From an uncultured Rhodospirillales bacterium (GTDB lineage Bacteria; Pseudomonadota; Alphaproteobacteria; Acetobacterales; Acetobacteraceae): a DNA stretch of 52,712 nt. Each line of letters opens with the position of its first letter. The stretch's first letter is position 1. A model generated the notes under the pieces. The model was not told where the DNA came from and ran no database searches. It saw nothing but the letters and a program-made list of their open reading frames with translations. The translations under genes were made by a program, and so were the position numbers. The DNA lies in NCBI GenBank assembly GCA_903893975.1, contig CAITOL010000089.1, forward strand, positions 1-52,712, given 5' to 3'. Below, one piece after another: positions 7,604-52,508 of this stretch.

Positions 7604-7679
7604 GTGGGGTAGGGTGTAGGTTTGTTGTTTTTGTTGCGATATCGGACTTATTTAAGGGCTCAAGAGGCCCTCACCCCGG

Positions 7680-7705
7680 CCCTCTCCCGTAAGGACGGGA
7701 GAGGG
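7680..7705. repeat. Perfect 11-bp hairpin, REP-like element
   Basis: CCCTCTCCCGT (7680-7690) and ACGGGAGAGGG (7695-7705) pair perfectly around an AAGG loop. CCCTCACCCCGGC lies just before. Sequences of this type are dispersed extragenic palindromes in many proteobacteria. It lies between the 7-kb basic protein gene and ettA and could also end upstream transcription. Confidence 0.7.
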
Positions 7706-7721
7706 GGAAGAAAAGGATCGG

Positions 7722-7766
7722 AAGTTTTTTTGCTTCTTTTTGTTCACAAAAAGAAGACCTTAGCTT
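7722..7766. repeat. A/T hairpin repeat (class 1, reversed)
   Basis: CTTCTTTTTGT (7733-7743), TC, ACAAAAAGAAG (7746-7756): perfect 11-bp arms. A T-run precedes it, so the orientation is opposite to the copy at 9548. It lies 90 bases before the ettA start. Confidence 0.75.
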
Positions 7767-7854
7767 CCTTGGCCTTGCCTGAATTTGCCTCAACCGTCGC
7801 TGCCGCTTAAAAGGGCGCGCCGCCGCAGTATTACCCGTTTGAAGGAGCAGGGCC

Positions 7855-9534: not shown

Positions 9535-9540
9535 GGGGGA

Positions 9541-9690
9541 GGAGGGTGTTCTTTTTGTGAACAAAAAGAACCAAAAAAACTTTATCGATTTCTGGGCGAT
9601 GCCGTACATCCCCCGGTGGGCGGGTGTTCGTGGAGCCAATGTTGGAAAAGTTTTTTGCTCCTTTTTTTCAAAAAAGGAGTGCTTGCCTTC
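9541..9690 (+). repeat. Composite hairpin repeat, about 150 bp (copy 1)
   Basis: A class 1 hairpin (GTTCTTTTTGT 9548-9558, ACAAAAAGAAC 9561-9571) is joined by about 85 bp to a class 2 hairpin (CTCCTTTTTT from 9658, AAAAAAGGAG 9670-9679). The whole unit recurs inverted at 27150-27305 with most bases conserved, including the spacer. It starts within 10 bases of the ettA stop codon, the same position the other copy takes after its own gene. Confidence 0.85.
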
Positions 9691-9708
9691 TTCTGATCGG
9701 CCAAAGCC

Positions 9709-10218
9709 ATGAACCCAAGTTGGGTAATTCGCACCGGGCGGCTGATGATGCGCCCGGTGGCGTATGGCGATCTGGCGGATTTGCGCGCGTTGAAGGCGGA
9801 CCCGCAGGTGTTTGCGGTGATGCTGGGTGGGGTGCGCGGGTCGGTGCAGGTGGCGGAGGAGCTGGCGGAGGATATCCAGTTCTGGGGCGCGCATGGCGTG
9901 GGCATGTGGGCGGTGCGCGATCTGGCCGGGGTGTTTGTCGGCCTGGTTGGGTTGCACGGGCGGCCGGATGGGCGCGGCATGGCGTTGCGGTTTGCGATGA
10001 CGCTGGCGGCGCAAGGGCGTGGCTATGCCAGCGAAGCGGCCGGGGCGGCGTTACGGTTTGCGCATGATCAGGCCGGGCTGCGTCGGGTGGTGGCGGTGGC
10101 GCGGTTCAGCAACGTGGCGTCACGCCAGGTGCTGGGGGGCATTGGCATGACGCTGTGCGAGACGTGGCTGCGCGATGGCGAGGCGACGGTGATGTATGAG
10201 AGCGTGCGGCGGGATTAG
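9709..10218 (+). CDS. GNAT N-acetyltransferase, RimJ/RimL-like
   Basis: The protein has 169 residues. It opens with IRTGRLMMRPVAYGDLADL, typical of Acetyltransf_3 proteins that acetylate ribosomal or other N-termini and antibiotics. The acetyl-CoA-binding motif region reads AAQGRGYASEAAGAAL (the Q/RxxGxG/A loop), and ARFSNVASRQVLGGIGM matches the usual 'NxxSxxvleklGF' ending. The substrate is unknown. Its stop overlaps the stop of convergent aliA. Confidence 0.85.
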   Translation: MNPSWVIRTGRLMMRPVAYGDLADLRALKADPQVFAVMLGGVRGSVQVAEELAEDIQFWGAHGVGMWAVRDLAGVFVGLVGLHGRPDGRGMALRFAMTLAAQGRGYASEAAGAALRFAHDQAGLRRVVAVARFSNVASRQVLGGIGMTLCETWLRDGEATVMYESVRRD

Positions 10219-11807
10219 GTTTTGGCGATTTCGCGCAGGCGGAATTTCTGGATTTTGCCGCTGGGGGTGCGCGGCATTTCGGTGACGATTTCCAAACGTT
10301 CCGGGATGTATTGGCGGGCCATGCGCTGGTCGGCGAGGTAGGCGGTCATATCCGCGAAGGAGAGGCTGGCGCCGTCGCGCAGTTTGACGAAGGCGCAGGC
10401 GCGTTCCCCCAGGCGTGGGTCCGGCGTGCCGACGATGGCGATTTCGGCGATGGCGGGGTGGCGGAAGAGCAGGTTTTCGACCTCCACGACCGGAATGTTT
10501 TCGCCGCCGCGGATGATGATGTCTTTCGAGCGGCCGGCGATGCGGATGTAGCCTTCCGGGTCCATGCGGGCGAGGTCACCGGTATCGAACCAGCCGTCGG
10601 GGTCGGTGTTGTCCAGTTCCGGGCGCTTGAGGTAGCCGAGAAAGTTGGAGCAGCCGCGCACTTGCAGGCGGCCTTCGGTGCCGGGCGGGAGTGGGGTGCC
10701 CTCGGCGTCGATGACGCGGACCTGCATGCCCGGGAGGGCGCGGCCGTCAGTGGTGGTGGCCTTGTCTTCCGGGTCGTCCGGCAGGGTGGTGGTGACGGCG
10801 CCGTTTTCCGACATGCCCCAGGCGGAGATGATGGCGGCACCGAGGGCGGGGCGGGCGCGGGTGACGAGGGCGCGGGGGATGGGGGCGCCGGCGGAGACGA
10901 AGACGCGCAGGCTGGGGGTGGTGAGGCCGGTGGCTTCGACGTGTTCGGTGAGGTCGTTGAGGAAGGGGGTGGCGCCCATGGTGAAGCTGGCGCGGTAGTG
11001 CGTGATCTGGCGGGCCATTTCGGGGGCGGTGAACTGGTCTTGCAGCACGGCGGTGGCGCCGAGCATGACGGGCAGCACGAGGCCGTACATGAAGCCGAGC
11101 TGGTGGGCCATGGGGGAGGGCATGTGGATGACGTCGTCCGCGCCGAGGCCGAGGCGGGCGGCGAAGGGGACGAGGTTGGAGAGCATGGTGTTGGAGCTGT
11201 GCAGCACGCCCTTTGGCTCTCCGGTGGTGCCGCTGGTGTAGAGGAGCTGGATGACCGCGTCCGGGGTGGGCGGCGACAAAGCGGGGGGAGCGTCGGCGAG
11301 CAGGGCGTCAAACGGTTCGGCGTGGGTGGTGGCGTCGCCGATAGCGAAGACGTGGCGCAAGGCGGGGAGTTGGTCGCGGACATTGGCGACCATGGCCGGG
11401 TAGTCGAAGCCACGGAAGCTGGTGGGGACGACGAGGATTTTGGTTTCGGCCAGAGCGAGCATGAAGGCGAGTTCGCGTTCGCGGAAAATCACCATCAGCG
11501 GGTTGCTGACCGCGCCGGCTTTGAGGCAGGCGAGGTGGAGGACACTGAACTCCCACCAGTTGGGGAGCTGGAACGAAACCGTGTCGCCGGGTTGGACGCC
11601 GCGGGCGCGGAGGTTGGCGGCGAGGCGGTCGGACAGGTGATCGAGGGTGCGGTAGTCGAGCTGCTGTTCGTGGCCGTTGCGGATGGCGATGATGGCGGGC
11701 TTGAGCGGGGTGGCGGCGACGGCGTGGCGGAGGTGATCCAGCAGGGTACGGTCTTGCCAGTCACCGCGTGCGATCATCGCGGCGCGACGGGTTTCGATAT
11801 TTTGCAT
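10215..11807 (-). CDS. aliA: Cyclohexanecarboxylate-CoA ligase-like AMP-dependent acyl-CoA synthetase
   Basis: The protein has 530 residues, and GGGAGG precedes the ATG at 11807. It has the adenylate-forming motifs LLYTSGTTGEPKGV (P-loop A3), SAWGMSENG (A5), GWFDTGDLARMDPEGYI (A7/A8), GRSKDIIIRGGENI and a C-terminal PRTPSGKIQK with the catalytic Lys. It should activate an alicyclic or aromatic acid to its CoA thioester. The assignment to AliA rests mostly on neighbours: aliB is 24 bp upstream, with badI and badH beyond, as in the Rhodopseudomonas cyclohexanecarboxylate pathway. Substrate range could be broader. Confidence 0.85.
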   Translation of the reverse strand: MQNIETRRAAMIARGDWQDRTLLDHLRHAVAATPLKPAIIAIRNGHEQQLDYRTLDHLSDRLAANLRARGVQPGDTVSFQLPNWWEFSVLHLACLKAGAVSNPLMVIFRERELAFMLALAETKILVVPTSFRGFDYPAMVANVRDQLPALRHVFAIGDATTHAEPFDALLADAPPALSPPTPDAVIQLLYTSGTTGEPKGVLHSSNTMLSNLVPFAARLGLGADDVIHMPSPMAHQLGFMYGLVLPVMLGATAVLQDQFTAPEMARQITHYRASFTMGATPFLNDLTEHVEATGLTTPSLRVFVSAGAPIPRALVTRARPALGAAIISAWGMSENGAVTTTLPDDPEDKATTTDGRALPGMQVRVIDAEGTPLPPGTEGRLQVRGCSNFLGYLKRPELDNTDPDGWFDTGDLARMDPEGYIRIAGRSKDIIIRGGENIPVVEVENLLFRHPAIAEIAIVGTPDPRLGERACAFVKLRDGASLSFADMTAYLADQRMARQYIPERLEIVTEMPRTPSGKIQKFRLREIAKT

Positions 11808-11831
11808 GTTTGCCTCCCGCTGGTTTTTGTT

Positions 11832-12992
11832 TCAGCTTCGATTGAGGTGTTGGACGGAGAGCCGGCCGGCGCGCTCGCGGGCGACGATCATTTTCATGAT
11901 CTGTGCGGTGCCGTCGCCGATCTCCAGGCCCATGACGTCACGCAGGCGCTGCTGGTGCGGCAGGTCCAGCGACCAGCCGTAATGGCCGTGGGTGAGCAGG
12001 CATTGGTGGATGACGTCGACGGCGGTTTTCGGGCCGAGCCATTTGCACATCGCGGCTTCGGCGGTGTGGGCGGCGTCGGCGTCGCGCAGGCGGAGGGTGT
12101 GGTAGCAGAGCTGGCGCACGGCGGCGATCAGGCCTTCCCCTTCGGCGAGGGGGAAGGTGACGCCCTGGTATTGGGCGATGGGGGCGCCGAAGGCCTGGCG
12201 TTCGGTGATGTAGGCCCAGCTTTCGTCGAGCGAGGCCTGGGCGATGGCGCAGCATTGCAGGCCGATCAGCGCGCGGCTGTAGTCGAAGCCCTGCATGACC
12301 TGGACGAAGCCCATGCCTTCGTCGGCGAGACGGTGGCTGACGGGAACGCGGACGTCGTCAAAGAAGATCGAGCCGCGGCCGACGGCTTTGCTGCCGAGGT
12401 CGTTGAAGCGGGTGCGGCTGATGCCGGGCAGGTCCATGGGCACCAGCAGGGCGGTGACGCCCTTGGCGCCAGGACCGCCGGTGCGGGCGAAGACGACGGC
12501 GACATCAGCCTGGTCGGCCATGCTGATGGAGGATTTTTCGCCGCGCAGGACGTAGTGGTCGCCATCGCGTTTGGCGGACAGAGCGAGGTTGGCGGCATCC
12601 GAGCCGCCGCGTGGTTCAGTGAGGGCCAGCGCGATCAGGGCTTCGCCGGAGATGATGCGCGGGAGCCAGTAGCCGGCGAGGTCGGGGCTGGCGTGGCGGG
12701 CGACGATCTGGCCGTTGAGGGAGGCGAGCAATGGCACGTAGGAGACGTTGAAATCCCCGTAGGCGACGGCTTCGATGATGATGCCGGTGGTTGCGCTGGG
12801 GGCGCCCAGGCCGCCGTATCGCTCCGGCAGATCGGCGCCGATCAGGCCGAGTTCCCCCATTTCCCGCACCAGGGCGCGGGAAATGGTGGCTTCGGTTTCG
12901 CGGCGCATATAGGCGGGGGCGAGCCGTTCGCGGGCGAAACGTTGGGCGACGTCCTGATAGGCGCGCTGCTCGTCGGTGAGGAGGGCGGACAT
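11832..12992 (-). CDS. aliB: Acyl-CoA dehydrogenase, AliB-like (cyclohexanecarboxyl-CoA dehydrogenase)
   Basis: The protein has 386 residues, full length for the family. The N-terminal helical domain begins LLTDEQRAYQDVAQRFARE. The central FAD-binding beta domain has IALALTEPRGGSDAANL and GEKSSISMADQAD. The C-terminal domain has the FAD contact QCLLTHGHYGWS. It would introduce a double bond into the ring of cyclohexanecarboxyl-CoA, passing electrons to ETF. It starts 2 bp after the badI stop, so the operon is tight. The family is certain; the substrate comes from context. Confidence 0.85.
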   Translation of the reverse strand: MSALLTDEQRAYQDVAQRFARERLAPAYMRRETEATISRALVREMGELGLIGADLPERYGGLGAPSATTGIIIEAVAYGDFNVSYVPLLASLNGQIVARHASPDLAGYWLPRIISGEALIALALTEPRGGSDAANLALSAKRDGDHYVLRGEKSSISMADQADVAVVFARTGGPGAKGVTALLVPMDLPGISRTRFNDLGSKAVGRGSIFFDDVRVPVSHRLADEGMGFVQVMQGFDYSRALIGLQCCAIAQASLDESWAYITERQAFGAPIAQYQGVTFPLAEGEGLIAAVRQLCYHTLRLRDADAAHTAEAAMCKWLGPKTAVDVIHQCLLTHGHYGWSLDLPHQQRLRDVMGLEIGDGTAQIMKMIVARERAGRLSVQHLNRS

Positions 12993-12994
12993 GG

Positions 12995-13780
12995 TTAGAT
13001 CTGATGCTTGCGGAAGTCGGGCTTGCGCTTTTCGTTGAAGGCGCGGACGCCTTCTTTCGATTCGTCGCTGGCGTAGTACATCGTCAGCGCCTGCATCCCC
13101 ATGCCGGAGATGCCTTTGATGTTGTCGCTATCGGCGTTGAAGGAACGTTTGGCGATGGCGATGGCGGTGGGGCTGCGCTCGACGATTTCAGCGCACCAGG
13201 CGGCGATTTCCTGGTCGAGGTCTTCGTGCGGCACGACCTTGTTGACGAGCCCCATGGCGAGCGCCTCGGCGGCGGTGTAGCGGCGGCAGAGATACCAGAT
13301 CTCCCGCGCCTTCTTTTCGCCGACGACACGGGCGAGATAGGCGGTGCCGAAGCCGGGATCGACCGAGCCCATTTTCGGGCCGACCTGGCCGAAGATGGCT
13401 TTTTCCGAGGCGATGGTCAGATCGCAGATCGTGGCCAGCACGTTGCCGCCGCCGATGGCGTAGCCTTGCACGCGGGCGATGACGGGCTTCGGCACTTCGC
13501 GGATGATACCTTGCAGTTCTTCGACCGGCAGGCCGATGATGCCGCGCCCGTCATATTGGCCGTCATGCGCGGATTGATCGCCGCCGGTGCAGAAGGCGCG
13601 GTCGCCCGCGCCGCCGAAGACGATGACGCCCACCGATTTGTCCCAGCCGGCGCGGTTGAAGGCGTGGATCAACTCTTCGCAGGTCTGGCCGCGGAAGGCG
13701 TTCATCACCTTCGGGCGGTTGATGGTGATGTGGGCAACGTTATCGTTGACGCGAAACAAAATATCTTGATAATCCATCAT
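12995..13780 (-). CDS. badI: 2-ketocyclohexanecarboxyl-CoA hydrolase (crotonase family)
   Basis: The protein has 261 residues, with GGAGCGAG before an ATGATG start. It is a crotonase fold, but with features I recognise from BadI rather than ordinary enoyl-CoA hydratases: MNAFRGQTCEELI, GDRAFCTGGDQSAHDGQYDG, VQGYAIGGGNVLATICDLT and GQVGPKMGSVDPGFGTAYLA. BadI cleaves the ring of 2-ketocyclohexanecarboxyl-CoA to pimelyl-CoA. The remaining close alternative is a MenB-type naphthoate synthase, which shares these motifs, but the genomic partners favour BadI. Confidence 0.9.
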   Translation of the reverse strand: MMDYQDILFRVNDNVAHITINRPKVMNAFRGQTCEELIHAFNRAGWDKSVGVIVFGGAGDRAFCTGGDQSAHDGQYDGRGIIGLPVEELQGIIREVPKPVIARVQGYAIGGGNVLATICDLTIASEKAIFGQVGPKMGSVDPGFGTAYLARVVGEKKAREIWYLCRRYTAAEALAMGLVNKVVPHEDLDQEIAAWCAEIVERSPTAIAIAKRSFNADSDNIKGISGMGMQALTMYYASDESKEGVRAFNEKRKPDFRKHQI

Positions 13781-13836
13781 CTCGCTCCAGAAATGGGTCC
13801 AAAACAGGCGTGCGGGTGTGGCCTGGCCGGCCGTTG

Positions 13837-14604
13837 TTAGCCCGCCATGGTCAGGCCGCCGGAGACGCTGATCACCTGCCCGGTGATGAAGGCGGCATCG
13901 TCGCTGGCAAAGAACAGCACCGCACCTGGCAGATCTTCCGGTTCACCGATGCGACCGAGCGGGACGGAGCGGCGGAAGGCTTCTTCCAGCTTCTCCGGAT
14001 TGCCGGCGCCCTGCTTGTAGCCTTCGAACAGCGCGGAATGGGTCGGGCCGGGGCAGACGACGTTGACGGTGATCTGATTGCGGGCGTGTTCGCGGGCGAT
14101 GGTTTTGGAAAAGCCGAGCAGGCCGGATTTGCAGGCGGCGTACACCGCTTCACCGGATGAGCCGACGCGGGCGGCGTCGGAGGCGATGTTGACGATCCGG
14201 CCGCCGCCTTGCGCGATCATGGTCGGCAGGACGGCGTGGTGCAGGTTGAGCGCGCCGACGAGGTTGATGCTGATCAGTTTGTGCCATTCCTCGGGCGTGC
14301 TGTCCTTGAACAGGCGGAAGACGTCCCAGCCGGCGTTGTTGACCAGTACGTCGATGCGCCCGTGCCGGGCGAGCACGTCGTCAGTGGCGGCTTTGACCGC
14401 GGCGTAGTCGGTAATGTCGCAGCCAAAGCCGCGGGCCAGGCCGCCGGCGGCGGTGATGGCGGCGGCGGTTGCTTCGGCCGCCGCGAGATTGATGTCGAAC
14501 ACCGCGACTTTGGCGCCGGCTGCGGCGAAGCGTTTGCAGGTGGCGCCACCGATGGCGCCGCCGCCGCCGGTCACGATGACGATTTTATCTTTCAGGCCGC
14601 GCAT
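13837..14604 (-). CDS. badH: 2-hydroxycyclohexanecarboxyl-CoA dehydrogenase (SDR)
   Basis: The protein has 255 residues, with GGAGG 6 bases before the ATG at 14604. It has classical short-chain dehydrogenase motifs: TGGGGAIGGATC (dinucleotide loop), FDIN (Asp after strand 2, so NAD rather than NADP), NNAGWD, the catalytic Ser in NIASDAA, and YAACK. It would oxidise the 2-hydroxy to the 2-keto ring thioester, the step before BadI. It is the first gene of the badH-badI-aliB-aliA run and faces badR across 90 bp. Confidence 0.87.
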   Translation of the reverse strand: MRGLKDKIVIVTGGGGAIGGATCKRFAAAGAKVAVFDINLAAAEATAAAITAAGGLARGFGCDITDYAAVKAATDDVLARHGRIDVLVNNAGWDVFRLFKDSTPEEWHKLISINLVGALNLHHAVLPTMIAQGGGRIVNIASDAARVGSSGEAVYAACKSGLLGFSKTIAREHARNQITVNVVCPGPTHSALFEGYKQGAGNPEKLEEAFRRSVPLGRIGEPEDLPGAVLFFASDDAAFITGQVISVSGGLTMAG

Positions 14605-14632
14605 GTCGCCTCCGTTCTTTGCTGGCTAACCA

Positions 14633-14693
14633 GATATAGCAATGGTATGACATAAACTCCGAAGCGCTCGCAAGCGATATATAGCAAGGTATT
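14633..14693. promoter_or_regulatory. Two related candidate BadR operator sites
   Basis: ATATAGCAATGGTAT (14634-14648) and ATATAGCAAGGTAT (14679-14692) are near-direct repeats in the badH/badR intergenic space. The first contains an imperfect palindrome, ATAgCA-a-TGgTAT. The second overlaps the badR ribosome-binding site, so one protein could control both directions. The MarR-type regulator next door is the obvious candidate. This is inference. Confidence 0.5.
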
Positions 14694-14694
14694 G

Positions 14695-15183
14695 ATGGAT
14701 ACGCCCGAACATAGCCAAACTGCCCGGTTCGATGTGGCCAATCGCTTGTTTCTGCGCTTGTACCAAGCGTCGAACCTGCTGCATAAAACCGGCACCAAGG
14801 CGGTGGCGCGGTTTGGCGCGACCACGCAGCAATGGGCGGTGCTGGGGGCGCTGTCGCGGCCGGCGGAGCGGGCGCAGGGGATGACGGTGAAGCAGTTGGT
14901 CGGCTTCCTGATGGTCAGCCGGCAGAACCTGACCGCGGTGCTGGACCGGCTGGAGCGGGCGGGGCTGGTGGAGCGCAGCCGGATTGCCGGCGATGGGCGG
15001 TTGCGCCATGTCCGGCTGACGGCGCAGGGCGCACAAATGTGGGCGGATATGCAGCCGGCTATTCGTGATTACTACGCCGATGCTCTTGATGGGTTTTCGA
15101 CCGACGAGGCGGTCATGCTATTTCGCCTGCTCGACCGGTTGCGCGATCGCTTGGCGGACATCGTGGAACCCGAACTGGGCTGA
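14695..15183 (+). CDS. badR: MarR-family transcriptional regulator, BadR-like
   Basis: The protein has 162 residues. The ATG at 14695 is used, with AAGG 5 bases upstream; a TTG one codon earlier is the alternative. The winged-helix core is plain: GATTQQWAVLGAL, MTVKQLVGFLMVSRQNLTAV (recognition helix), LDRLERAGLVERSR, then the wing GDGRLRHVRLTAQG. In Rhodopseudomonas, BadR represses the cyclohexanecarboxylate genes and is released by a pathway CoA intermediate. The same role is likely here, as the gene diverges from badH. Confidence 0.85.
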   Translation: MDTPEHSQTARFDVANRLFLRLYQASNLLHKTGTKAVARFGATTQQWAVLGALSRPAERAQGMTVKQLVGFLMVSRQNLTAVLDRLERAGLVERSRIAGDGRLRHVRLTAQGAQMWADMQPAIRDYYADALDGFSTDEAVMLFRLLDRLRDRLADIVEPELG

Positions 15184-15186
15184 GCG

Positions 15187-15576
15187 TTATTGCAACGGTA
15201 CGCGAACGGTGAGGCTGGGAACCAGTGTGGTGCCGATGGCGCCGCCGGGGTTGCCGACCTGTCGGGTGCGACGTTCAAGCTGTGATGAGTAGCCGGAGCC
15301 GGGCGCATAGCCGTTGGCCAAGGCCGGCTGGCCGGTGCGATCGGCCATCGTCGGCTCAACCCGCGGGTGCTTATCGATCGGCGGAAGCGGCGGGTCGATG
15401 TCGAAATTGGGCACCGGGGCGGGGTCCAAGCTTTTCGGTGGTGTCTCGCTTTCCAGCTTGGGCATCGGGCCCTTGATCAGCAGGTCGGGCTTGGCGGGCG
15501 GGACGGCGGCGGCGCCTGGGGGCGGCATGGCCACAGCCAGCAGCGCCGGCAACAGCAGGGTGGCGGTGCGGCGCAT
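15187..15576 (-). CDS. Small exported Pro-rich protein, unknown function
   Basis: The protein has 129 residues, starting at the ATG at 15576, which overlaps the Nudix stop (TAATG). The first 23 or so residues form a signal peptide (MRRTATLLLPALLAVAMPPP...AAA). The mature part is rich in Pro, Asp and Lys with PPLPPIDKHP, then a Gly/Gln-rich end closing in TVRVPLQ. No domain is recognised. Translational coupling to the Nudix gene supports it as real, although the two jobs look unrelated. Confidence 0.6.
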   Translation of the reverse strand: MRRTATLLLPALLAVAMPPPGAAAVPPAKPDLLIKGPMPKLESETPPKSLDPAPVPNFDIDPPLPPIDKHPRVEPTMADRTGQPALANGYAPGSGYSSQLERRTRQVGNPGGAIGTTLVPSLTVRVPLQ

Positions 15577-16118
15577 TACCCGCGCCCGGCGCGCCCGACA
15601 CCGCGAGGATCGGTTGGCGGGTTGCCGGCCGGGGCGCCGAGCGGGCCGGTCTGGTTGGCGTGCCATGCTTGCAGCGCCCAGTGCACGGTGGGGAAGGCCA
15701 GTTGGTCCCAGGGGATATCGTCCCAGGCGAACAGCGCGACTTCCAGGCTTTCGGTGCCAGCGCCGAAGGAGGGCTGATCGGCAAAGCGGGCGCGGAACAT
15801 GATATGGACCTGGCCGATGCGGCTGATCGAGTAGATCGCCAGGATGCCGTCCAGGGTAATATCGGCTTCGGCTTCTTCCAGCGCTTCTCGCCTGGCGCCG
15901 TCCTCGACGGTTTCGCCGAGTTCCATGTAGCCGGCGGGGAGGGTCCAGAAGCCGTGGCGCGGTTCGATCGCGCGGCGGCAGAGCAGGATTTTACCGTCAT
16001 GCGCCACGACGGCGCCGGCGACGATTTTGGGGTTTTGATAGTCGATATGGCCGCAGTCGCGGCACACCATGCGCTCGCGGTTATCGCCGTCCGGGACTTC
16101 GAGTGCAAAATCGACCAT
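15576..16118 (-). CDS. Nudix hydrolase with N-terminal zinc-ribbon-like region
   Basis: The protein has 180 residues, starting at the ATG at 16118 (a TTG lies two codons upstream). A CxxC pair (MVCRDCGH) near residue 20 precedes the domain; only one pair is present, so metal binding may be incomplete. The Nudix box GYMELGETVEDGARREALEE follows the pattern Gx5Ex7REUxEE around residues 70-90. It should hydrolyse a nucleoside diphosphate derivative such as ADP-ribose or an NADH-type dinucleotide; the substrate is not predictable. The C-terminus beyond the domain is Gly/Pro-rich and probably disordered. Confidence 0.88.
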   Translation of the reverse strand: MVDFALEVPDGDNRERMVCRDCGHIDYQNPKIVAGAVVAHDGKILLCRRAIEPRHGFWTLPAGYMELGETVEDGARREALEEAEADITLDGILAIYSISRIGQVHIMFRARFADQPSFGAGTESLEVALFAWDDIPWDQLAFPTVHWALQAWHANQTGPLGAPAGNPPTDPRGVGRAGRG

Positions 16119-16176
16119 AGGCAAGATGTGGCATGCTCAGGGGCTGGGTTTCAACCCCGCTGCGCGCAGATCCGGC

Positions 16177-16398
16177 CTAGACGGAGAGATTGAGCAGCGA
16201 CCCGCGCGGCGGCGGCTGAGAGGGCGGGCTGCTGGGCAGGGCCTGCAGCGGCGTTTGCGTGTTGGCCCGCGCCTGCTGCACCCCGGCGACGGCGCCGGGA
16301 ATGTCAGTTACGGTGGGCCGTTGGGTCGGCGCGCTGGGACGCGGACCGGACGGGATATTGTTTGCGGAGAAGGCCGCAAGGGATGATGTTGAAATCAT
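16177..16398 (-). CDS. Small proline-rich hypothetical protein
   Basis: The protein has 73 residues from the ATG at 16398; several in-frame ATGs upstream (16407, 16434) make the start uncertain. The sequence is low complexity, with SGPRPSAPTQRPTVTDIPGA followed by a Gln/Ala helix and a Pro-rich end PPRGSLLNLSV. No domain or signal is seen. I keep it because codon use is core-like and the ending looks like a conserved short motif. A spurious call is possible. Confidence 0.4.
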   Translation of the reverse strand: MISTSSLAAFSANNIPSGPRPSAPTQRPTVTDIPGAVAGVQQARANTQTPLQALPSSPPSQPPPRGSLLNLSV

Positions 16399-16573
16399 AG
16401 CTCGCATGGTAAGTCGCATTGGTGAAGACTTCATTAATGAGACACGGTTTGCCTCATGCACCTTCGCCAGGCGGGAGTCGAGGATTTTCGCCACATCGCT
16501 TGACGTCAGACGTTGCTGTACCCCCAAGCTTTCACCTCACGCGCCCGAGTGGCGCCATGCAGGAGCTTTGCCC

Positions 16574-16981
16574 ATGAACGCGCTATCGCATTATCTGGAT
16601 ACCACGCTGGTGACGCTGCTGGCGTTGGCGGTTTACTTCTATGCCGGCATTCGCGCCGGCCGGGCCCGGCAGACCTATGGCATCAAGGCGCCGGCAACCA
16701 CGGGACATCCGACGTTTGAGCGGGCGTTCCGGGCGCAGATGAACACGTTGGAATGGATGCCGCTGTTCCTGCCGGCGTTGTGGCTGTTTGCCCTGACGGT
16801 GGGGGATGTGCCGGCGGCGGTGCTGGGCGTGGTCTGGGTGGTTGGCCGGGTGCTCTACATTACGTCCTACATCGCGGCGGCGGAAAAGCGTGGCCCGGGC
16901 TTTGGGGTGCAGGCGATTGCGACCCTGGTGCTGTGGCTGGGCGCGTTGGTGCGCGTTGCGATGGCCCTGATCAGCGGTTAA
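16574..16981 (+). CDS. MAPEG-family integral membrane protein
   Basis: The protein has 135 residues, with AGGAG 8 bases before the ATG. Four transmembrane helices are visible. The MAPEG hallmarks are an N-terminal helix ending in Arg/Tyr, the loop FERAFRAQMNTLEWMPLFLP, which contains the conserved 'RxQxNxxE' glutathione-site signature, and a final hydrophobic helix. The family includes membrane glutathione transferases. The gene ends 34 bp before soxB, so it may share its transcript, but no functional link to sarcosine oxidation is known. Confidence 0.85.
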   Translation: MNALSHYLDTTLVTLLALAVYFYAGIRAGRARQTYGIKAPATTGHPTFERAFRAQMNTLEWMPLFLPALWLFALTVGDVPAAVLGVVWVVGRVLYITSYIAAAEKRGPGFGVQAIATLVLWLGALVRVAMALISG

Positions 16982-27316: not shown

Positions 27317-28267
27317 CTAAAGCGCCGCCTCAGCCTTGGCCTTCTCGACAAATTCGAGCACCTGCTTGCCCACCGCTTCCATATCCTGCTCGAACTTCAG
27401 CAGCACATTCAGCGTGTCGCGCACGATGTCGACATCGAGGTGGCTGGCGTGCAGCAGCAGCAGCGCCCGCGCCCAGTCCAGCGTTTCGCTGACGGACGGC
27501 AGCTTACGCAGATCCATCGACCGCAATTGCTGCACGAATGACACGATCTGGCGCAGCAACTGCGCCTCCACCTGCGGCAGGCGGGTATGGACGATCCGCT
27601 CTTCCAGCTTCGCCTCGGGGTAGCCGATATGCAGATGCAGGCAGCGGCGCTTCATCGCATCGCCCAGATCGCGACTGGCGTTCGACGTCAGCAGCACAAT
27701 CGGCGGCACGATGGCGGAAATCGTGCCGAGCTCAGGAATGGTCACCTGATAATCGGACAGAATTTCCAGCAAAAACGCTTCAAATTCCTCATCGGCCTTA
27801 TCGACCTCGTCCACCAGCAATACCGCGCCACCCGGCTGCTTCAGCGACTGCAACAGCGGCCGCGGCTCGAGGAAGCGTTCGGAGAAGAACAGGTCATCGA
27901 ATTCGTTCAGCTTATCCAGCGCGCCATCCAGCGAAGAAAACTCGCGCAGCTGCTCGCCCATCTTGTCCTTGAGGATTTGCGTGTAGAGCAGCTGCTTACC
28001 GTATTTCCATTCGTACAATGCCTTGGACTCATCCAGTCCATCGTAGCACTGCATGCGGATCAGCGGCAGGCCGAGATGCTGCGCCGTCGCCTTGGCGAGC
28101 TCCGTCTTGCCCACGCCGGCCGGGCCTTCCACCAGGATCGGTTTTTGCAGCCGCACCGCGAGAAACAGCGCAGTGGAGATTTGCCGTGATGGGATGTAGC
28201 CGACTGATGACAAGCCGGCGTCGACACTTTGAATGCTGGGTAACAGCAGTTCGAGGCTCTGTTTCAC
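27317..28267 (-). CDS. MoxR-family AAA+ ATPase
   Basis: The protein has 316 residues. Walker A GPAGVGKT is at about 48, Walker B LLVDEVDKAD at about 150, sensor 1 LTSNASRDLGDA, and the arginine-finger region MKRRCLHLHIGYP. The acidic/aromatic insert (ALYEWKYGKQ) is typical of the MoxR subgroup that includes CoxD. It probably uses ATP to remodel or load cofactor into a client enzyme together with the VWA protein encoded downstream. The client enzyme is not obvious nearby: no CO dehydrogenase genes are in the window. Confidence 0.92.
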   Translation of the reverse strand: MKQSLELLLPSIQSVDAGLSSVGYIPSRQISTALFLAVRLQKPILVEGPAGVGKTELAKATAQHLGLPLIRMQCYDGLDESKALYEWKYGKQLLYTQILKDKMGEQLREFSSLDGALDKLNEFDDLFFSERFLEPRPLLQSLKQPGGAVLLVDEVDKADEEFEAFLLEILSDYQVTIPELGTISAIVPPIVLLTSNASRDLGDAMKRRCLHLHIGYPEAKLEERIVHTRLPQVEAQLLRQIVSFVQQLRSMDLRKLPSVSETLDWARALLLLHASHLDVDIVRDTLNVLLKFEQDMEAVGKQVLEFVEKAKAEAAL

Positions 28268-46246: not shown

Positions 46247-46321
46247 GGCGGTGTAGCTCAGCGGTAGAGCAGGGGAATCATAATCCCTTGGTCGGTGGTT
46301 CAAATCCGCCCACCGCTACCA
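46247..46321 (+). tRNA. tRNA-Met (anticodon CAT)
   Basis: Acceptor GGCGGTG pairs with CACCGCT (one G-T at position 1-72). The D-arm GCTC/GAGC, anticodon stem GGGGA/TCCCT with loop ATCATAA (CAT), T-arm GGTGG/CCGCC with loop TTCAAAT, and encoded CCA are all present. The position 1-72 base pair suggests elongator Met rather than initiator; a tRNA-Ile2 with lysidine is the other CAT reader. Integrase lies 267 bp downstream, so its 3' end is probably the att site. Confidence 0.92.
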
Positions 46322-46588: not shown

Positions 46589-47794
46589 ATGCCCCGACTA
46601 AACCCAGATACCATCAAGATCATGGATGGCGTTGCCGTGCTGTTTCGGCGCAATCGCAGCGCCGCATGGCAGGTGAGATATAAAGCCAACGGCAAATGGC
46701 TGCGCACCACGACCCAGCAAATGCTGTTGGCAGATGCCCGACGTGCGGCTGAAGATATTGTGCTGGAAGCCCGCTTTAAACAACGCCATGGCATGCCTGT
46801 TGTGACCCGACGCTTCGCCAGCGTGGCTGCCACTGCCATTGCACGCATGAACACCGCACTGACAGCTGGCGACGGCAAGACCGTCTACACCCACTACATC
46901 GGCGCCTTGCAAAACTATCTGGTGCCGTATTTGGGCAACCACGGCATCGCCAATGTGGACGCTGCGCTGTTGCGCAAGTTTGCCGTGTGGCGTGCTGAGC
47001 AGATGAAGCACGAACCTCGATCCAGCACCATCAACACCCACAACGCAGCTTTGTCGCGTGTGTTCGATGTGGCTTTGGAGCTGGGCTACATCAACAACAC
47101 ACAACTGCCTGTGTTGCAGAACAAGCCCCGCGACAGCGATCGACGCCCAGATTTCACCTTGATGGAATATCGCCAGCTCTATCGCGTGATGCGCAGCTGG
47201 GTGAAGCAGGGCAAATCAGGCAAAAGCCGCGACATGCGCATGTTGCTGCGCGACTACGTGTTGATCCTGGCAAACACAGGCATGCGGCATGGCACCGAGA
47301 GCCAGGGTTTGAAATGGAAACATGTCTCGGAGTTTGTGGATCACCAACGTCGCTATCTGGCGATGTGGGTGGATGGCAAGACGGGTGGACGCGAACTCAT
47401 CGCACGATACAACTGCGTGACCTATCTCAAGCGCATCCATGCCCGTGCGGATGATCTCAAGCACTTGACCTGGGATCAGTTGCTCACGGCTGGGCGCGAT
47501 GAGTTTGTGTTTCGCCTGCCCGATGGCACCCAGAGCAAGAGCCTGCATCAGACGTTCGAGGTGTTGCTCACAGATGCGGGGTTGCTGGTGGATCGCAGGA
47601 CCGAGCAAAACCGCACGCTGTATTCGCTGCGGCACACCTACGCCACCATGTCCTTGATCCATGCGCGTGTGGACATTCACACACTTGCCAAACAGATGGG
47701 AACCTCGATCTTGATGATCGAACGGCACTACAGCCATTTGAAGCCTCGTCAACGTGCGGAGCAACTGGCTGGTGGTTTGCAGGTTCGGGGGTAG
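46589..47794 (+). CDS. Tyrosine recombinase/integrase
   Basis: The protein has 401 residues. The N-terminal DNA-binding part begins MPRLNPDTIKIMDGVAVLFRR. The core-binding domain follows (about 85-165). The catalytic domain has the first Arg in NTGMRHGTES, a His-x-x-Arg equivalent SLRHTYAT, and Tyr in MIERHYSHLKP. These are the R...H-R...H...Y set. It should integrate and excise the element at the tRNA-Met gene next door. Confidence 0.93.
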   Translation: MPRLNPDTIKIMDGVAVLFRRNRSAAWQVRYKANGKWLRTTTQQMLLADARRAAEDIVLEARFKQRHGMPVVTRRFASVAATAIARMNTALTAGDGKTVYTHYIGALQNYLVPYLGNHGIANVDAALLRKFAVWRAEQMKHEPRSSTINTHNAALSRVFDVALELGYINNTQLPVLQNKPRDSDRRPDFTLMEYRQLYRVMRSWVKQGKSGKSRDMRMLLRDYVLILANTGMRHGTESQGLKWKHVSEFVDHQRRYLAMWVDGKTGGRELIARYNCVTYLKRIHARADDLKHLTWDQLLTAGRDEFVFRLPDGTQSKSLHQTFEVLLTDAGLLVDRRTEQNRTLYSLRHTYATMSLIHARVDIHTLAKQMGTSILMIERHYSHLKPRQRAEQLAGGLQVRG

Positions 47795-47833: not shown

Positions 47834-48394
47834 TCAGATCAGTTCCACGGCAGCACGCTGCATGACATCGTTGACGTCGATGTAGCGCTGGGTTGTGGAG
47901 ATCGACCGATGACCAGCCAGAGCAGCCAGAACACGCACGCCCACCCCCTTGTTTGCCAGCACAGTGATGAAGCTGCGTCGTCCCGAGTGCGATGACGCGC
48001 CATCGATGCCAGCACGCTGGTAGATGGCATTCAGCAACTGGCAGGCTGAGTTGGCGGAGAAAGCTGGCTGTTTCTGCGTGGCGAACAGATGGGTCTGGGC
48101 TTTATCAAGAGTCTTTATATAAGCGCCGATTTCCTTGCGCAGGCGTTCGCTCACGAACACTGTGCGGGCGTGCTTGCCTTTGGTTTGCTCGGGCGCCAGA
48201 CGGATTTCGGGTTTGGCTGTGCCATCCGTGCTGATGACATCCGTGACCCGCAGCGCAGCCACTTCGCCAATACGCATGCCAGCCCAGTGCGTCATCAACA
48301 CCATGAGCCTGTTGCGTGCAGCTTGGGGACGCGTTGCCACATGATCCAGCACACGACGCAGGTCCTTGGAGGTCAGTGTGCGAGCTTGGGACAT
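47834..48394 (-). CDS. Second, short tyrosine recombinase (convergent)
   Basis: The protein has 186 residues. The ATG at 48394 has AGGAG 9 bases upstream; the open frame extends further without a site. It is catalytic domain only: GMRIGEVAAL with Arg, SSHSGRRSF with the His/Arg pair, AGHRSISTTQRYI with His and Tyr. No core-binding domain precedes, apart from a short SKDLRRVLDHVA helix. Reduced recombinases of this kind act as DNA invertases, resolvases or accessory integrases. It faces the large integrase tail to tail with only 40 bp between. Confidence 0.88.
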   Translation of the reverse strand: MSQARTLTSKDLRRVLDHVATRPQAARNRLMVLMTHWAGMRIGEVAALRVTDVISTDGTAKPEIRLAPEQTKGKHARTVFVSERLRKEIGAYIKTLDKAQTHLFATQKQPAFSANSACQLLNAIYQRAGIDGASSHSGRRSFITVLANKGVGVRVLAALAGHRSISTTQRYIDVNDVMQRAAVELI

Positions 48395-48629
48395 CAGTTG
48401 GGCTCCTGCAGATAACGTTTCAGTTGTCGCGACATTATTTCCTGTCTTGTGGATGGTCGATGCCTGTGTGCTGTGGCTATGCATCATATATATCAATGGC
48501 TTGTGCGCCAGATAAGGTAATCGCTATTTCATTAGGTTCTTGATTGCTTGGCTTGCGCGCACCACCGACGGCGAACACCGCTCGGGACTGGGCCACGGTG
48601 GCCCATTCAACAAAGATGGAGATGATATC

Positions 48630-49433
48630 ATGGAAAACGTTGGCACCATCACTGTGTCCGCAGAGCAGAACGATGCCCTGAACGACGCGGTTGCCGCTGT
48701 GTGGCAGGAAGCCACGCCCACCGCCACCGACTACATCGACGCCCTGGTGCAGGCGCGCAAGGACTGGGAGGACACTCTGCTGCATGCCAGCAATCAGGGC
48801 CTCTACGGTCTGCTGGCCAAGTGCATGCGCGTCTACAATATCATGACGCAGGCGGACGAACAGGGCGCCAAGCTGCGCGACGACTTCGATGCCTACATCA
48901 AGAACGCCAAACTCAAGTTCGACGGCGCCACGCACACCGTGGTGAAGATCGCGCGTGTGGTGTTCGACAACGACCGCAAGAAGGCCAGCGCCTACGGCTA
49001 CGCCCTGCGGGCGGCAGTGCGCGACGGCATCGCACCCGAAGCACTTGCAGCCTACATCACCAACAAGGGTGGTGTGGAAAAGCTGCGCATGACCGACGAA
49101 GCCGTGCAGCACGAAACCATGCAGGACAAGGCAATCCGCGCCTGGAGCAGCCTGCAGCGCACGCGTCTGGCTGTGGCGCAGGGCACCGAGCTGAGCAAGG
49201 CGTGCGACATGGCGAACATCGGCAAGCGCGTGGTGCTGCTGGCGACGCAGCTGGCGAATGGCGAATTTGCCGTGCATGCGGTGGTGCAGGCGGACAGCGT
49301 GGTGAACCACGCCTATGCGGCACAGGCACCTGAAATGGCCAAGGCACAAGCCAATACCCAGGATGCCGCTGTGGCCAAACAAAACGACCTGGCCAAGGCG
49401 CGTGCGGAAGCCGTCAAGGCTGCGCTGGGCTGA
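48630..49433 (+). CDS. Element-borne hypothetical protein preceding the clamp-loader-like gene
   Basis: The protein has 267 residues. GGAGA precedes the ATG at 48630. It is predicted largely helical, with charged heptad-like stretches (KLRDDFDAYIKNAKLKFDG; QDAAVAKQNDLAKARAEAVKAAL) and no membrane segment. No family is recognised. A C-terminal Ala/Lys/Gln tail looks coiled coil. It lies 73 bp before the AAA+ gene on the same strand, so the two may form one machine. Codon use and moderate GC fit the element. Confidence 0.7.
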   Translation: MENVGTITVSAEQNDALNDAVAAVWQEATPTATDYIDALVQARKDWEDTLLHASNQGLYGLLAKCMRVYNIMTQADEQGAKLRDDFDAYIKNAKLKFDGATHTVVKIARVVFDNDRKKASAYGYALRAAVRDGIAPEALAAYITNKGGVEKLRMTDEAVQHETMQDKAIRAWSSLQRTRLAVAQGTELSKACDMANIGKRVVLLATQLANGEFAVHAVVQADSVVNHAYAAQAPEMAKAQANTQDAAVAKQNDLAKARAEAVKAALG

Positions 49434-49506
49434 ACCTGCGATTGGGGGCGGTGATCGGCATCGCCCCCGCGCCACCCAAAACATTTCACAAACCAGGAGA
49501 TCGACT

Positions 49507-50142
49507 ATGCCCAAGACCTATCAGGATATCGTCTACCCCAGCGCCGCAGCGGCCGCGCTGGTGCACAACCTCGTCACCAACCGCATGCCGTTCCCCGCGA
49601 ATGGCAAGAACGGCTTGCTGATCTACGGACCCAGCGGCACAGGCAAGAGCACGCTGGCGCAGTTGCTGGTCCAGGACATCCCCGCAGCGCGCGGTGGACG
49701 CCCCGTGTTCGCAGTGACGCACCCCATCATCACCACAGGCGGCAACAACGCGTCGCTACTCCAGTCCATGCGCAAAAAAGCCGAAACCCTGTTCGTGATG
49801 GAAGACCTCAACCTGTTCATCCTGCACGAGGTAGACCTGCTGGGCAACGCTGCCATGCGGTCGATGAAGTCAGTCATGGACATGCCCTGCACCATGTTCG
49901 TGATGACCACCAACGACATCAGCGCCGTGGAGAACGGGGTCAAAAGCCGCAGCCATCTGATCGACATGACGGCACCACCTGCCGCGCAATGGCTGAACCA
50001 GGCGCGGCAGCACCTTGCGACCCTGGGCGTGACCAAACCCGTTGCGGACCAGGAGCTGCTGCCTTTGATTGCGGGCTGCCATGGCGACGTGCGGGAGATC
50101 CTGACCCAGCTGCAAATGCTGGCTTTGGACCTGGCTGCCTGA
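49507..50142 (+). CDS. AAA+ ATPase resembling a clamp-loader small subunit (RFC/phage type)
   Basis: The protein has 211 residues; AGGAG is 7 bases before the ATG at 49507. Walker A GPSGTGKST is at about 43-51, and the Walker B position reads LFILHEVDLLG, with HEVD instead of DExx. FVMTTNDISAVENGVKSRSH matches sensor 1 and the 'SRC' finger of replication factor C/DnaX-type loaders, with SRS in place of SRC. The last 60 residues form a small helical lid. Phage clamp loaders have this small size. It could load a sliding clamp or act as a helicase loader. It is expressed after the 267-residue partner. Confidence 0.75.
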   Translation: MPKTYQDIVYPSAAAAALVHNLVTNRMPFPANGKNGLLIYGPSGTGKSTLAQLLVQDIPAARGGRPVFAVTHPIITTGGNNASLLQSMRKKAETLFVMEDLNLFILHEVDLLGNAAMRSMKSVMDMPCTMFVMTTNDISAVENGVKSRSHLIDMTAPPAAQWLNQARQHLATLGVTKPVADQELLPLIAGCHGDVREILTQLQMLALDLAA

Positions 50143-50198
50143 AGGGTCTCACGGCACAACACCCGCCTGGGCGCACTGCCCGAGGTGGACTACAAAAT

Positions 50199-50234
50199 GG
50201 CGGCGAGCAACATCCAGTTGCCGCCGCCTTTTTT
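50199..50234 (+). terminator. Intrinsic terminator after the AAA+ gene
   Basis: GGCGGC-GA-GCAAC, loop ATCCA, GTTGC-C-GCCGCC, then TTTTTT. It lies 57 bases after the stop codon at 50142. It is nearly the same hairpin as at 51032. Confidence 0.88.
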
Positions 50235-50266
50235 ACTTTTGCTGCCGCGCTGTCGGTATCACGAGA

Positions 50267-50455: not shown

Positions 50456-51004
50456 ATGTCTATCAACACGAACACCAAAAACAACAAACACGATCACAAG
50501 ACCGAAGAGTGCCACAACTTGATCGAATTTGCCGCTACGCAGGTTTACCATCTCATGATCGAGGCGACTGGTGGCAAAGGCACTACGGCGAATGACCGTG
50601 CTGACGACTTCGACTATGCAATCGACGTGATCTGGCACAACGCGCCTCTGACAACGCCGCTTGCGGCTGGCTATGAAGACGCAGGCGAGATCGCCAACCA
50701 TATCGCATCCCAGTGGAAGATCGACGAAATCCGTTGCGATGAAGTGATCCACACTGATCATACAATCTATGTCCACGGAGCCGTGTATGTGGATCGGGTG
50801 GTGCCCGCGAGCCGCGCATCTCTTGGCGATCATAACCACGGCATGATCAACATCACGTGGAGCATCTCGCCGTCAGGCGCGGTCAGCGCGAGCGCCGATC
50901 TGACGCATGTGAAAAACATGAGCGATGCTGACATCGTCTCTTTCCATGAACGCGTTTGTGATTTCTGGCAGACGCGGTGGGTGAGGCACACTTCTACGCG
51001 ATAA
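50456..51004 (+). CDS. Hypothetical element protein
   Basis: The protein has 182 residues. It starts MSINTNTKNNKHDHK; no strong ribosome-binding site is visible (GGATA nearby). It is acidic overall, with a His-rich N-terminal arm and a mixed alpha/beta body (EIRCDEVIHTDHTIYVHGAVYVDRV). No transmembrane or signal segment and no known domain are seen. A clean terminator follows its stop by 28 bases, which supports a real transcription unit. Confidence 0.6.
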   Translation: MSINTNTKNNKHDHKTEECHNLIEFAATQVYHLMIEATGGKGTTANDRADDFDYAIDVIWHNAPLTTPLAAGYEDAGEIANHIASQWKIDEIRCDEVIHTDHTIYVHGAVYVDRVVPASRASLGDHNHGMINITWSISPSGAVSASADLTHVKNMSDADIVSFHERVCDFWQTRWVRHTSTR

Positions 51005-51031
51005 GCATCGCCTTTATCTCGGCGGCAAAGC

Positions 51032-51067
51032 GGCGGCAGGCAACATCACGTTGCCGCCGCCTTTTTT
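51032..51067 (+). terminator. Intrinsic terminator after the 182-residue gene
   Basis: GGCGGC-A-GGCAAC, loop ATCAC, GTTGCC GCCGCC, then TTTTTT. Perfect stem apart from one bulged A. It ends the transcript of the gene stopping at 51004. The stem sequence is almost that of 50199-50234. Confidence 0.9.
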
Positions 51068-51110
51068 GTATCTGTGGCAGCGCAGTGGATTTTCATCGTC
51101 GATCACGGGT

Positions 51111-51144
51111 GCCAAGATGCCACTGTCGTGTTTTTAGTGTCGTG
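51111..51144 (+). repeat. 34-bp repeat (copy 2)
   Basis: It matches 50267-50300 at 29 of 34 positions. Its right end overlaps the first TGTCG palindrome (51138-51154). Confidence 0.7.
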
Positions 51145-51448
51145 CCTCACGACATTGCTGCCACCTCGGCTGTATGACCCAGACACCTCACATGTCGGGA
51201 GCCCGACATTCCATCTTGTGAGCGTCGAGGTGCCTGAGCACCTGAATGCACTCGGCTTCCCGATGCGACGGGTGGTGCTCATGACACGCCATTGATGCCC
51301 AATGGCTTTGTGACCTGATGTCGTGATCCCGACATTTGATCCTGGCAATTCCATCGCAGCAATGACGGGTTTGATGTGCATGATGTCGTTCGAACCGAAG
51401 ATGCCGATCTCGCTGGTGTTTGAGCCATGCGCTGTCGTGATCCCGACA
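51138..51448. repeat. Set of four TGTCG...CGACA palindromes in a non-coding region
   Basis: TGTCGTG-CCT-CACGACA (51138-51154), ATGTCGGG-AG-CCCGACAT (51192-51209), ATGTCG-6-CGACAT (51318-51335) and TGTCG-6-CGACA (51433-51448). The last two share TGTCGTGATCCCGACAT/G exactly over 16 bases. Spacing is 54, 126 and 113-115 bases, irregular. No gene of more than a hundred codons can be defended here. Candidate iterons or operators. Confidence 0.6.
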
Positions 51449-52154: not shown

Positions 52155-52508
52155 ATGCAAGACACACAACCCAGACCCAGAATTCGTCTATCAGATCGCG
52201 ACATCCTCAACCTGTGCCGCGAGCACCATTATGCCTACACACAATACCAGCTGAGCCAGTGCTGTGGACGCAATCGCAGCTGGATCAGTTCCCTGGCAGC
52301 CAGCGGACGCCGCATGAGCGTGGATGGGCTGGAAACACTGATGCTGAACATCACGCGTTATGCCAATCAGCACCCCGATTGGCAGACCGAGTTCAAGCTA
52401 CTGGAGCTGCGACACTTGATTGCCAACGAGTGCATGACGCGCAGACACGAAGATGCCCTGGCTTGGATAGCTCGACGCAATCAAGGCATGTGCGATGCGC
52501 ATTCGTGA
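52155..52508 (+). CDS. Small HTH-like element protein
   Basis: The protein has 117 residues. The region SDRDILNLCREHHYAYTQYQ, then LSQCCGRNRSWISSLAASGR, looks like a helix-turn-helix, with the second helix placed to read DNA. It is rich in Arg, Cys and His. Its stop (52506-52508) overlaps the next ATG by 14 bases, so it opens a coupled operon. It may regulate the genes downstream or the palindromes upstream. Family not recognised with certainty. Confidence 0.65.
   Translation: MQDTQPRPRIRLSDRDILNLCREHHYAYTQYQLSQCCGRNRSWISSLAASGRRMSVDGLETLMLNITRYANQHPDWQTEFKLLELRHLIANECMTRRHEDALAWIARRNQGMCDAHS

Follow-up and report, generated by a model that had tools for sequence, protein, structure and literature searches.

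A rare but recurrent gene pair, encoding a helical protein and a putative collarless clamp-loader-type ATPase, in small tRNA-integrated elements

The DNA analyzed here, called the window, is a stretch of 52,712 nucleotides from an uncultured Rhodospirillales bacterium (contig CAITOL010000089.1). Its last part contains an element, which starts at a tRNA-Met (CAT) gene detected by ARAGORN (46247..46321, + strand), the probable integration site and left end, and continues beyond the contig end at 52712, with a visible part of 6.4 kb. A tyrosine integrase of 401 aa lies next to the tRNA gene (46589..47794, +; PHROG 1 integrase, E 8e-31) and starts 267 bp past it. The following gene, on the opposite strand, encodes a small second tyrosine recombinase, reduced to the catalytic domain (47834..48496, -; Pfam Phage_integrase, 1.2e-27), whose residues R40, K71, H135, R138, H161 and Y170 are invariant across 9 aligned rows. 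Divergent from it is the gene for P, a 267-aa helical protein without recognised family (48630..49433, ATG to stop, +), followed by that for A, a 211-aa AAA+ ATPase of clamp-loader type (49507..50142, ATG to stop, +). The P and A genes are intact and co-oriented, with 73 bp between them, and are located 2.3 kb inside the element. GC content is about 0.70 in the two preceding chromosomal genes and 0.54-0.63 in the six element genes.

The P-A operon ends at an intrinsic terminator (50199..50238, +), evaluated by comparing its folding with that of shuffled sequences. The hairpin at about 50199-50230, taken with the U-run, reaches -24.1 kcal/mol (z=-7.4), and none of 200 shuffles was as good. The ORF pair closed by a strong terminator, as described in the initial annotation, is therefore present, and since intact homologues were found in dozens of loci both ORFs are considered real genes. 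A second copy of the terminator region (50193-50253) is found 833 bp downstream, at 51026-51086 (77% over 61 nt), just past a 182-aa ORF regarded as element cargo (50456..51004, +). This ORF has no Pfam match and no relative among the ORFs of 72 scanned loci; its single weak PHROG match (7e-4) is to a PHROG without assigned function. Downstream of it lie four palindromes, discussed below, and the gene for a 117-aa DUF6626-related protein (52155..52508, +; iterated profile match, E 6e-6), which belongs to the backbone of this element family.

No second copy of the tRNA-Met 3' end was found in the window assembly. A search of the remaining assembly for the right end of the element and for its WWW and DUF6641 genes found none of them, an empty answer being weak evidence. 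Outside the element, the GC skew of the window flips from positive to negative at about 26000, as at a replication terminus or a rearrangement point, and a 316-aa ORF at 27317-28267 (-), probably a host AAA+ protein, weakly matches the A profile (9e-6).

The A protein contains a Walker A motif GPSGTGKS (aa 41-48), the sequence HEVD at Walker B (107-110), a TTN sensor 1 (134-136), an SRS motif (147-149) and R196. It matches Pfam AAA (2.4e-8), and its best PHROG match is 168, clamp loader (6e-18). When a 32-row profile of A proteins (A9) was compared with PDB, the best match was the RFC small subunit (E 1.7e-40), and the first 42 of the 60 matches listed (386 passed) were RFC, gp44 or DnaX. The profile alignment covers the AAA+ and lid domains only, and ends before the collar (in gp44, it spans chain residues 11-215 of 319). 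The AlphaFold model of A (pLDDT 93.7, pTM 0.89) shows a RecA-like core and a three-helix lid, with no domain beyond; 49 of the 50 Foldseek matches listed were clamp-loader subunits, the remaining one being FtsH. According to profile and model, A is thus placed within the RFC/gp44/DnaX clamp-loader clade, and ends after the lid, without the C-terminal collar (domain III). The loader-type ATPase with Walker A, sensor and SRS motifs that had been proposed from the sequence is borne out by the motifs, PHROG 168, the A9 profile and Foldseek.

The HEVD sequence, singled out in the same proposal, is real in the window protein but is not a trait of the family. At the Walker-B Asp position, 28 of the 40 A ORFs collected have D, 7 have E and 4 have N, H being limited to the window, in a count where L089 was read by eye and three ORFs (L179, L215 and L223) are truncated downstream of the motif. 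The Asp is therefore missing in 12 of the 40, and the catalytic Glu is kept in all. Invariant residues in A9 are G41, G44, K47, E108 and R196, with P2, G46, T134, N136 and R148 conserved in at least 90% of the rows. The window protein is only about 18-40% identical to family members. ORF lengths, with starts uncorrected and the three truncated ORFs included, have a median of 226.5 aa and a range of 119-280. The 119-aa ORF (L090, 9408-9767, the same as L179) ends after a Walker B reading EEVD, near a contig end, and is apparently cut by other DNA.

The partner protein gave no match above cut-off in Pfam and none in PHROGs or NCBIfam; a Pfam match to GspL_C (E 0.006) was below cut-off and was taken as helical noise. 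Five P relatives (L088, L089, L035, L087 and L090) gave only AAA at E 0.098 (L035) and one PHROG without assigned function at E 0.0013 (L088). The P model (pLDDT 86.9, pTM 0.62, residues 1-9 below pLDDT 50) is mainly helical: a long helix at the N-terminus leads to a helical bundle, after which come a hairpin of two strands and another long helix at the C-terminus. Fold comparison with PDB and BFVD produced no match better than E 0.37, and VIA-align only coiled-coil-like matches with Z of 5.1 or less; a missing fold match does not prove a new fold. Identification as a coiled coil, an HTH protein or a terminase small subunit, suggested by such weak matches, was not believed. No sequence match linked P to gp62 or to a collar, and the fold scores just given are no better than that coiled-coil level. 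A helical partner without known family, located on an element, is what the initial annotation had described, and this description holds.

The occurrence of P and A together was examined by searches of genome sets and by a scan of contigs. Matches to the P profile, the own genome included, were found in 3 of 385 genomes of the class (G000, G096 and G329), 4 of 395 of the order and 6 of 398 of the phylum, and the P family is therefore rare. With P0002 as query, the class genomes revealed, in G096, a P-like gene preceding a 212-aa A. An AAA match at E <= 0.001 was obtained in 102 of the 385 class genomes; most of the matches listed are partial, inside longer AAA+ proteins. Two of the genomes matched by the P profile, G659 and G012, contain only a weak P-like domain, with no A in the stretch examined.

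The contigs were scanned by using the neighbouring WWW protein (A6), a selection on neither P nor A, which produced 60 named loci. These were joined to the window and eleven earlier loci and, after removal of five same-contig duplicates, 67 loci were obtained: P is found in 43 of them, A in 40, the small recombinase in 48 and WWW, by selection, in 64. WWW is divergent from P in 40 loci. The A gene lies directly downstream of P, on the same strand, for 35 of the 45 P genes or pieces in this non-redundant set, with gaps of -134 to 256 bp between ORFs as called. The initial annotation had made its proposal dependent on the pair being conserved in some other element, and this is what these counts show; the P-A pair is rare but not unique. 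Among the ten P genes lacking a downstream A, three (L188, L211 and L208) reach a contig end or come to within 240 bp of it, one (L220) is the initial fragment of a broken P, and one is a second, divergent P (P0005) in L089. The other five loci (L108, L109, L181, L214 and L219) have enough sequence and no A, so that P serves some purpose in its absence. According to the record titles, which are the depositors' own, the loci belong to alpha-, beta- and some gammaproteobacteria, many of them from water; the title 'Akkermansia' of L217 is doubtful, because its A nests in a Polynucleobacter clade.

Some single loci show further arrangements. The second P-like gene of L089 (8086-8778) faces the P-A operon, and a similar lone gene is found in L091 (8283-8969). 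In L112 (the same as L220, titled uncultured Roseicyclus), a stop splits P (9041-9895) and the integrase is found as two ORFs (11883-13297), the element being in decay.

Query P0002 alone gave nothing in a close-relative scan of genome contigs, viral contigs and plasmids, and four Vibrio clamp loaders, at 28-29% identity, among phages. Nothing was found with P0001 in plasmids and phages, with P0003 and P0005 in plasmids, or with the Polynucleobacter P in plasmids and phages. P0004 matched 25 plasmid records, the 20 listed being mostly dnaX-like genes, and the one Acetobacter plasmid AAA gene examined has no P beside it. Viral contigs carry long gp44-like loaders and recombinases, and no P in the stretches examined.

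The ends of the elements were analyzed in 24 loci, window included (8 + 16, L087 and L171 being the same contig), by searching for a repeat of the tRNA 3' half. A clean repeat of 44-49 nt was found in 11 of them; two (L210 and L213) were ambiguous, and 11, including the window, showed none in the stretch examined. The elements so delimited measure 11.1 kb (L089), 10.5 (L111), 10.9 (L112), 9.0 (L177), 10.3 (L178), 11.1 (L181, without A), 9.1 (L186, without P or A), 13.8 (L199), 19.0 (L201), 10.0 (L217) and 10.5 (L221). Relatives sit in elements of about 9-19 kb, integrated in tRNA genes. The elements L087 and L090 start, as that of the window, at tRNA-Met and have an integrase of the same family, the window integrase being 94% identical to that of L090 and 51% to that of L087. 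In the 72 loci scanned, DUF6641 gave 47 matches, a figure that counts duplicates as well as two matches that were weak or short. For DUF6626 there were 26, among them the window gene.

The relationship between P and A was further analyzed in 32 loci that have P and A of at least 170 aa. Their distance matrices correlate with r=0.85, the best of 999 permutations reaching 0.26. Either protein compared with WWW, the recombinase or DUF6641 gave 0.43-0.52, the recombinase giving 0.50 with P and 0.47 with A; WWW gave 0.34-0.40 with the recombinase or DUF6641. The value of 0.67 for recombinase and DUF6641 indicates that correlation also arises between genes for which no contact is expected.

A direct case of swap between related elements is provided by the window and L090. 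Their integrases are 94% and their recombinases 98% identical, and the DNA matches at 82.8% up to 48558; beyond this point, no DNA match exists for the P-A block, and the DUF6626 region aligns in inverted orientation, with 98.7% identity along 445 bp of DNA. With regard to a possible inversion by the small recombinase, the window was searched for a long inverted repeat in flanking position, and none was found. The nearest relatives of the window proteins are the P of L213 (35%) and the A of L201 (40%), both from records titled betaproteobacteria.

These data bear on the hypothesis that A is an ATP-driven regulator of the element recombinases, in the way that TnsC, IstB and MuB serve transposases, P being an adaptor to integration, excision or inversion. 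The small recombinase is present in 48 of the 67 loci, often close to the cassette, and the exchange just described, between elements with recombinases 94-98% identical, would be in line with it. We nevertheless consider it unlikely: A falls in the clamp-loader clade, with no IstB/TnsC-type protein among the 60 PDB or the 50 Foldseek matches listed and an IS21-helper match in NCBIfam at E 0.015 only; P and A diverge with the recombinase less closely than with each other; and the recombinase family is also found in viral contigs, where no P was found in the stretches examined.

The four palindromes of the window, TGTCG-N6/7-CGACA, are possible binding sites without assigned strand (51138..51448; starts at 51138, 51193, 51319 and 51433) and span 310 bp of element DNA with no recognised gene. 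Three have an N6 spacer, where 100 shuffles gave 0.08 such sites on average and never three; the single N7 site compares with a mean of 0.06, 6 of the 100 shuffles having at least one. The rest of the window contains no such palindrome and one N5 copy. Sites of the form TGTCG-N5-7-CGACA lying no more than 5 kb from P (the contig end being the limit in the window) number two or more in 8 of 32 P-A elements. Compared with the others, these elements resemble one another more closely in their A (p=0.0015), P (p=0.004), WWW (p=0.009) and recombinase (p=0.0175) proteins. Each of the six nearest P relatives of the window has at least one site, and the elements with the three nearest recombinases compared have none; L090/L179, nearer still by recombinase, was left out of this comparison because its A is truncated, and shows no TGTCG-type site beside the element genes. 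This one case hints, short of proof, that P or A, and not the recombinase, reads them.

Dispersed palindromes with 6-base arms were also counted: in 11 of 35 elements they reach three or more copies, more than in any of six shuffles, with a maximum of eight in L217. In this test, no excess was seen for the window (2 against 2 in shuffles). Together with the greater similarity of P and A where TGTCG-type sites are repeated, this excess would suit a partition or copy-control system, P binding the dispersed palindromes and A acting as the motor. Such a system appears the least likely of the alternatives considered. Known partition motors are ParA, actin-like or tubulin-like ATPases and not clamp-loader AAA+ proteins; site counts also track the recombinase and WWW; 24 of the 32 elements have fewer than two sites; and the window adds nothing to the 6-base-arm excess.

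A tree of 48 A proteins, rooted at midpoint for drawing only, separates the 32 A found with P from the rest by one branch (97/95); inner nesting is supported by 83/57 to 91/89, and L180, L177, L224, L220 and L072 form long branches. Five short A proteins from loci without P group together (99/93); around them are eleven viral gp44-like proteins, whose length of about 310-350 aa would, taken by itself, leave room for a collar. The collar may therefore have been lost more than once. Upstream of the P-less A genes a protein of about 200 aa is found in three of five cases, and a 126-aa protein in the other two, which are near-identical; comparison of P with the upstream partner by profiles gave a probability of 0.5%, and no link.

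One of these P-less loci, L193 (Zwartia panacis), encodes in a run on one strand (7093-9826) a 213-aa protein, a 203-aa A, a 230-aa clamp and a 217-aa HxH protein; no phage structural gene was noted alongside. The clamp is of T4 type (Pfam gp45 C-terminal domain, 4e-6; PDB 1b77, 1.8e-15; PHROG 223, 3.8e-42) and is the only one recognised when the 67 loci were searched with it. The L193 A matches the RFC small subunit (1.7e-17) and gp44 (1.1e-12), and is 39% identical to the protein of Rhizobium phage RL2RES. The HxH motif of the 217-aa protein reads HHIHG, and relatives were found in L189, L192 and L202. A second Rep-like family has HLH or HYH in L219 and L195 and is degenerate in L111/L216, L221 and L213; it adjoins DUF6641 in L111/L216, L221, L213 and L219. 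Members of these two families that were tried gave no Pfam or PHROG match, and from the motif they may be read as HUH-type Rep proteins. A third type is represented by an L196 protein, matching REP_ORF2-G2P at the Pfam cut-off.

The kinship of the P-less A to phage gp44 may also suggest that A is a decoy subunit, poisoning the loader of T4-like or helper phages, for defence or satellite interference, with P as carrier or regulator. A collarless A could be dominant negative, and beside the P-A genes of L035 lie ORFs (region 8960-16757) resembling, by eye, type I restriction-modification genes, which may be cargo or part of a neighbouring island. This role is judged rather improbable, less so than partition and more so than recombinase regulation. 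The best PADLOC match of A is mad8 (E 6e-5, AAA core only), then TRIP13 (4e-4), which does not go past generic AAA+ similarity, and P has none; the A clade found with P is separate from the viral rows sampled; and the sister operon has its own clamp and Rep-like gene, needless for a decoy. The initial annotation had left the choice between replication and defence open: replication has the better support of the two, through the sister operon with a sliding clamp, which does not amount to proof.

The interpretation we prefer, to which we would give about an even chance, is that P and A form a two-gene, clamp-loader-type module of small tRNA-integrated elements, in which P would take the place of the collar, direct A to the DNA of the element, or both, and a clamp would be loaded for copying. 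The pair would then probably help the host elements to copy themselves. A would supply the AAA+ and lid domains of a clamp-loader subunit; P, helical and co-diverging with it, would probably stand in for the collar and/or bring A to the element, possibly at the palindromes. Once the element is excised and Rep-dependent copying has started, the P-A complex would spend ATP to load a sliding clamp, for which the candidates are the beta clamp of the host and, where an element encodes its own as at least one sister does, a T4-type clamp. A may work like a clamp loader, yet is not a standard member, its collar being missing. The pairing and its conservation, the clade of A, the missing collar and the co-divergence are observed; binding of P to A, clamp loading, the choice of clamp and the role of the palindromes are all proposed from sequence and models.

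The loader module is favoured by the 35 of 45 pairings, the r of 0.85, the clade assignment by profile and model, the clamp operon of L193 and the Rep-like genes of some sisters. It is weakened by the presence of a clamp in one locus of 67, by the five P loci without A and by the number of clamp-binding-like motifs in P, A and WWW, which stays below that of shuffled sequences; the Walker-B His and the lack of a recognised Rep in the visible part of the window element weigh in the same direction, as does the missing fold match of P, which leaves its collar role a conjecture. The 'self-contained' device suggested by the initial annotation finds no support, since A lacks a collar and since the 6.4 kb of the element that can be seen before the contig end contain no recognisable gene for a clamp, a polymerase or a Rep.

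Among known systems, T4 gp44/gp62 (PHROG 168; PDB 3u5z) shares with A the AAA+ core and lid, Walker A, catalytic Glu, TTN sensor 1, arginine finger and sensor-2 Arg, and with L193 a gp45-type clamp adjoining the loader gene. It differs in that A has no collar, that the partner is encoded upstream and was tied to gp62 by no search, and that the pair lies in a small integrative element rather than in a phage replication cluster. The archaeal/eukaryotic RFC small subunit and bacterial DnaX gamma/tau are the best structural and profile matches of A, which stops at the point where their collar would begin. Phage satellites and small islands such as PICI, PICMI and PLE are similar in size (about 10 kb), tRNA integration, integrase and replication-type genes; the P, DUF6641 and WWW backbone is not known to belong to those families. 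The small recombinase weakly matches GmtY of the Gamma-Mobile-Trio islands (NF040693, 2e-5), but P matches no NCBIfam model, and no Gmt model is among the 25 NCBIfam matches listed for A.

No paper on DUF6641 or DUF6626 was found in the PMC literature, where subscription papers are mostly outside. The titles and opening parts of abstracts listed on clamp loaders and their collar, on clamp loaders in mobile elements, islands and satellites, or on Polynucleobacter islands, contain no description of the P-A pair. Known clamp loaders are pentameric, as two of these abstracts also state, and are kept together by the collar that forms part of every subunit. A bolder form of the loader module, which we put forward as tentative, is a split clamp loader: A would have lost its collar, and a separate, co-evolved P of a new family would supply it and steer the loader to element DNA, as the private processivity machine of a 10-kb element, a similar collarless set-up, with an unrelated partner and its own gp45-type clamp, apparently having arisen separately in sister elements. 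If true, a family of loaders made by two genes, with no collar of their own, would reveal to what extent this machine can be dismantled, and would offer a minimal system; it would moreover assign the first role to a backbone not described so far (P, WWW, DUF6641 and DUF6626) of tRNA-integrated islands in alpha-, beta- and gammaproteobacteria.
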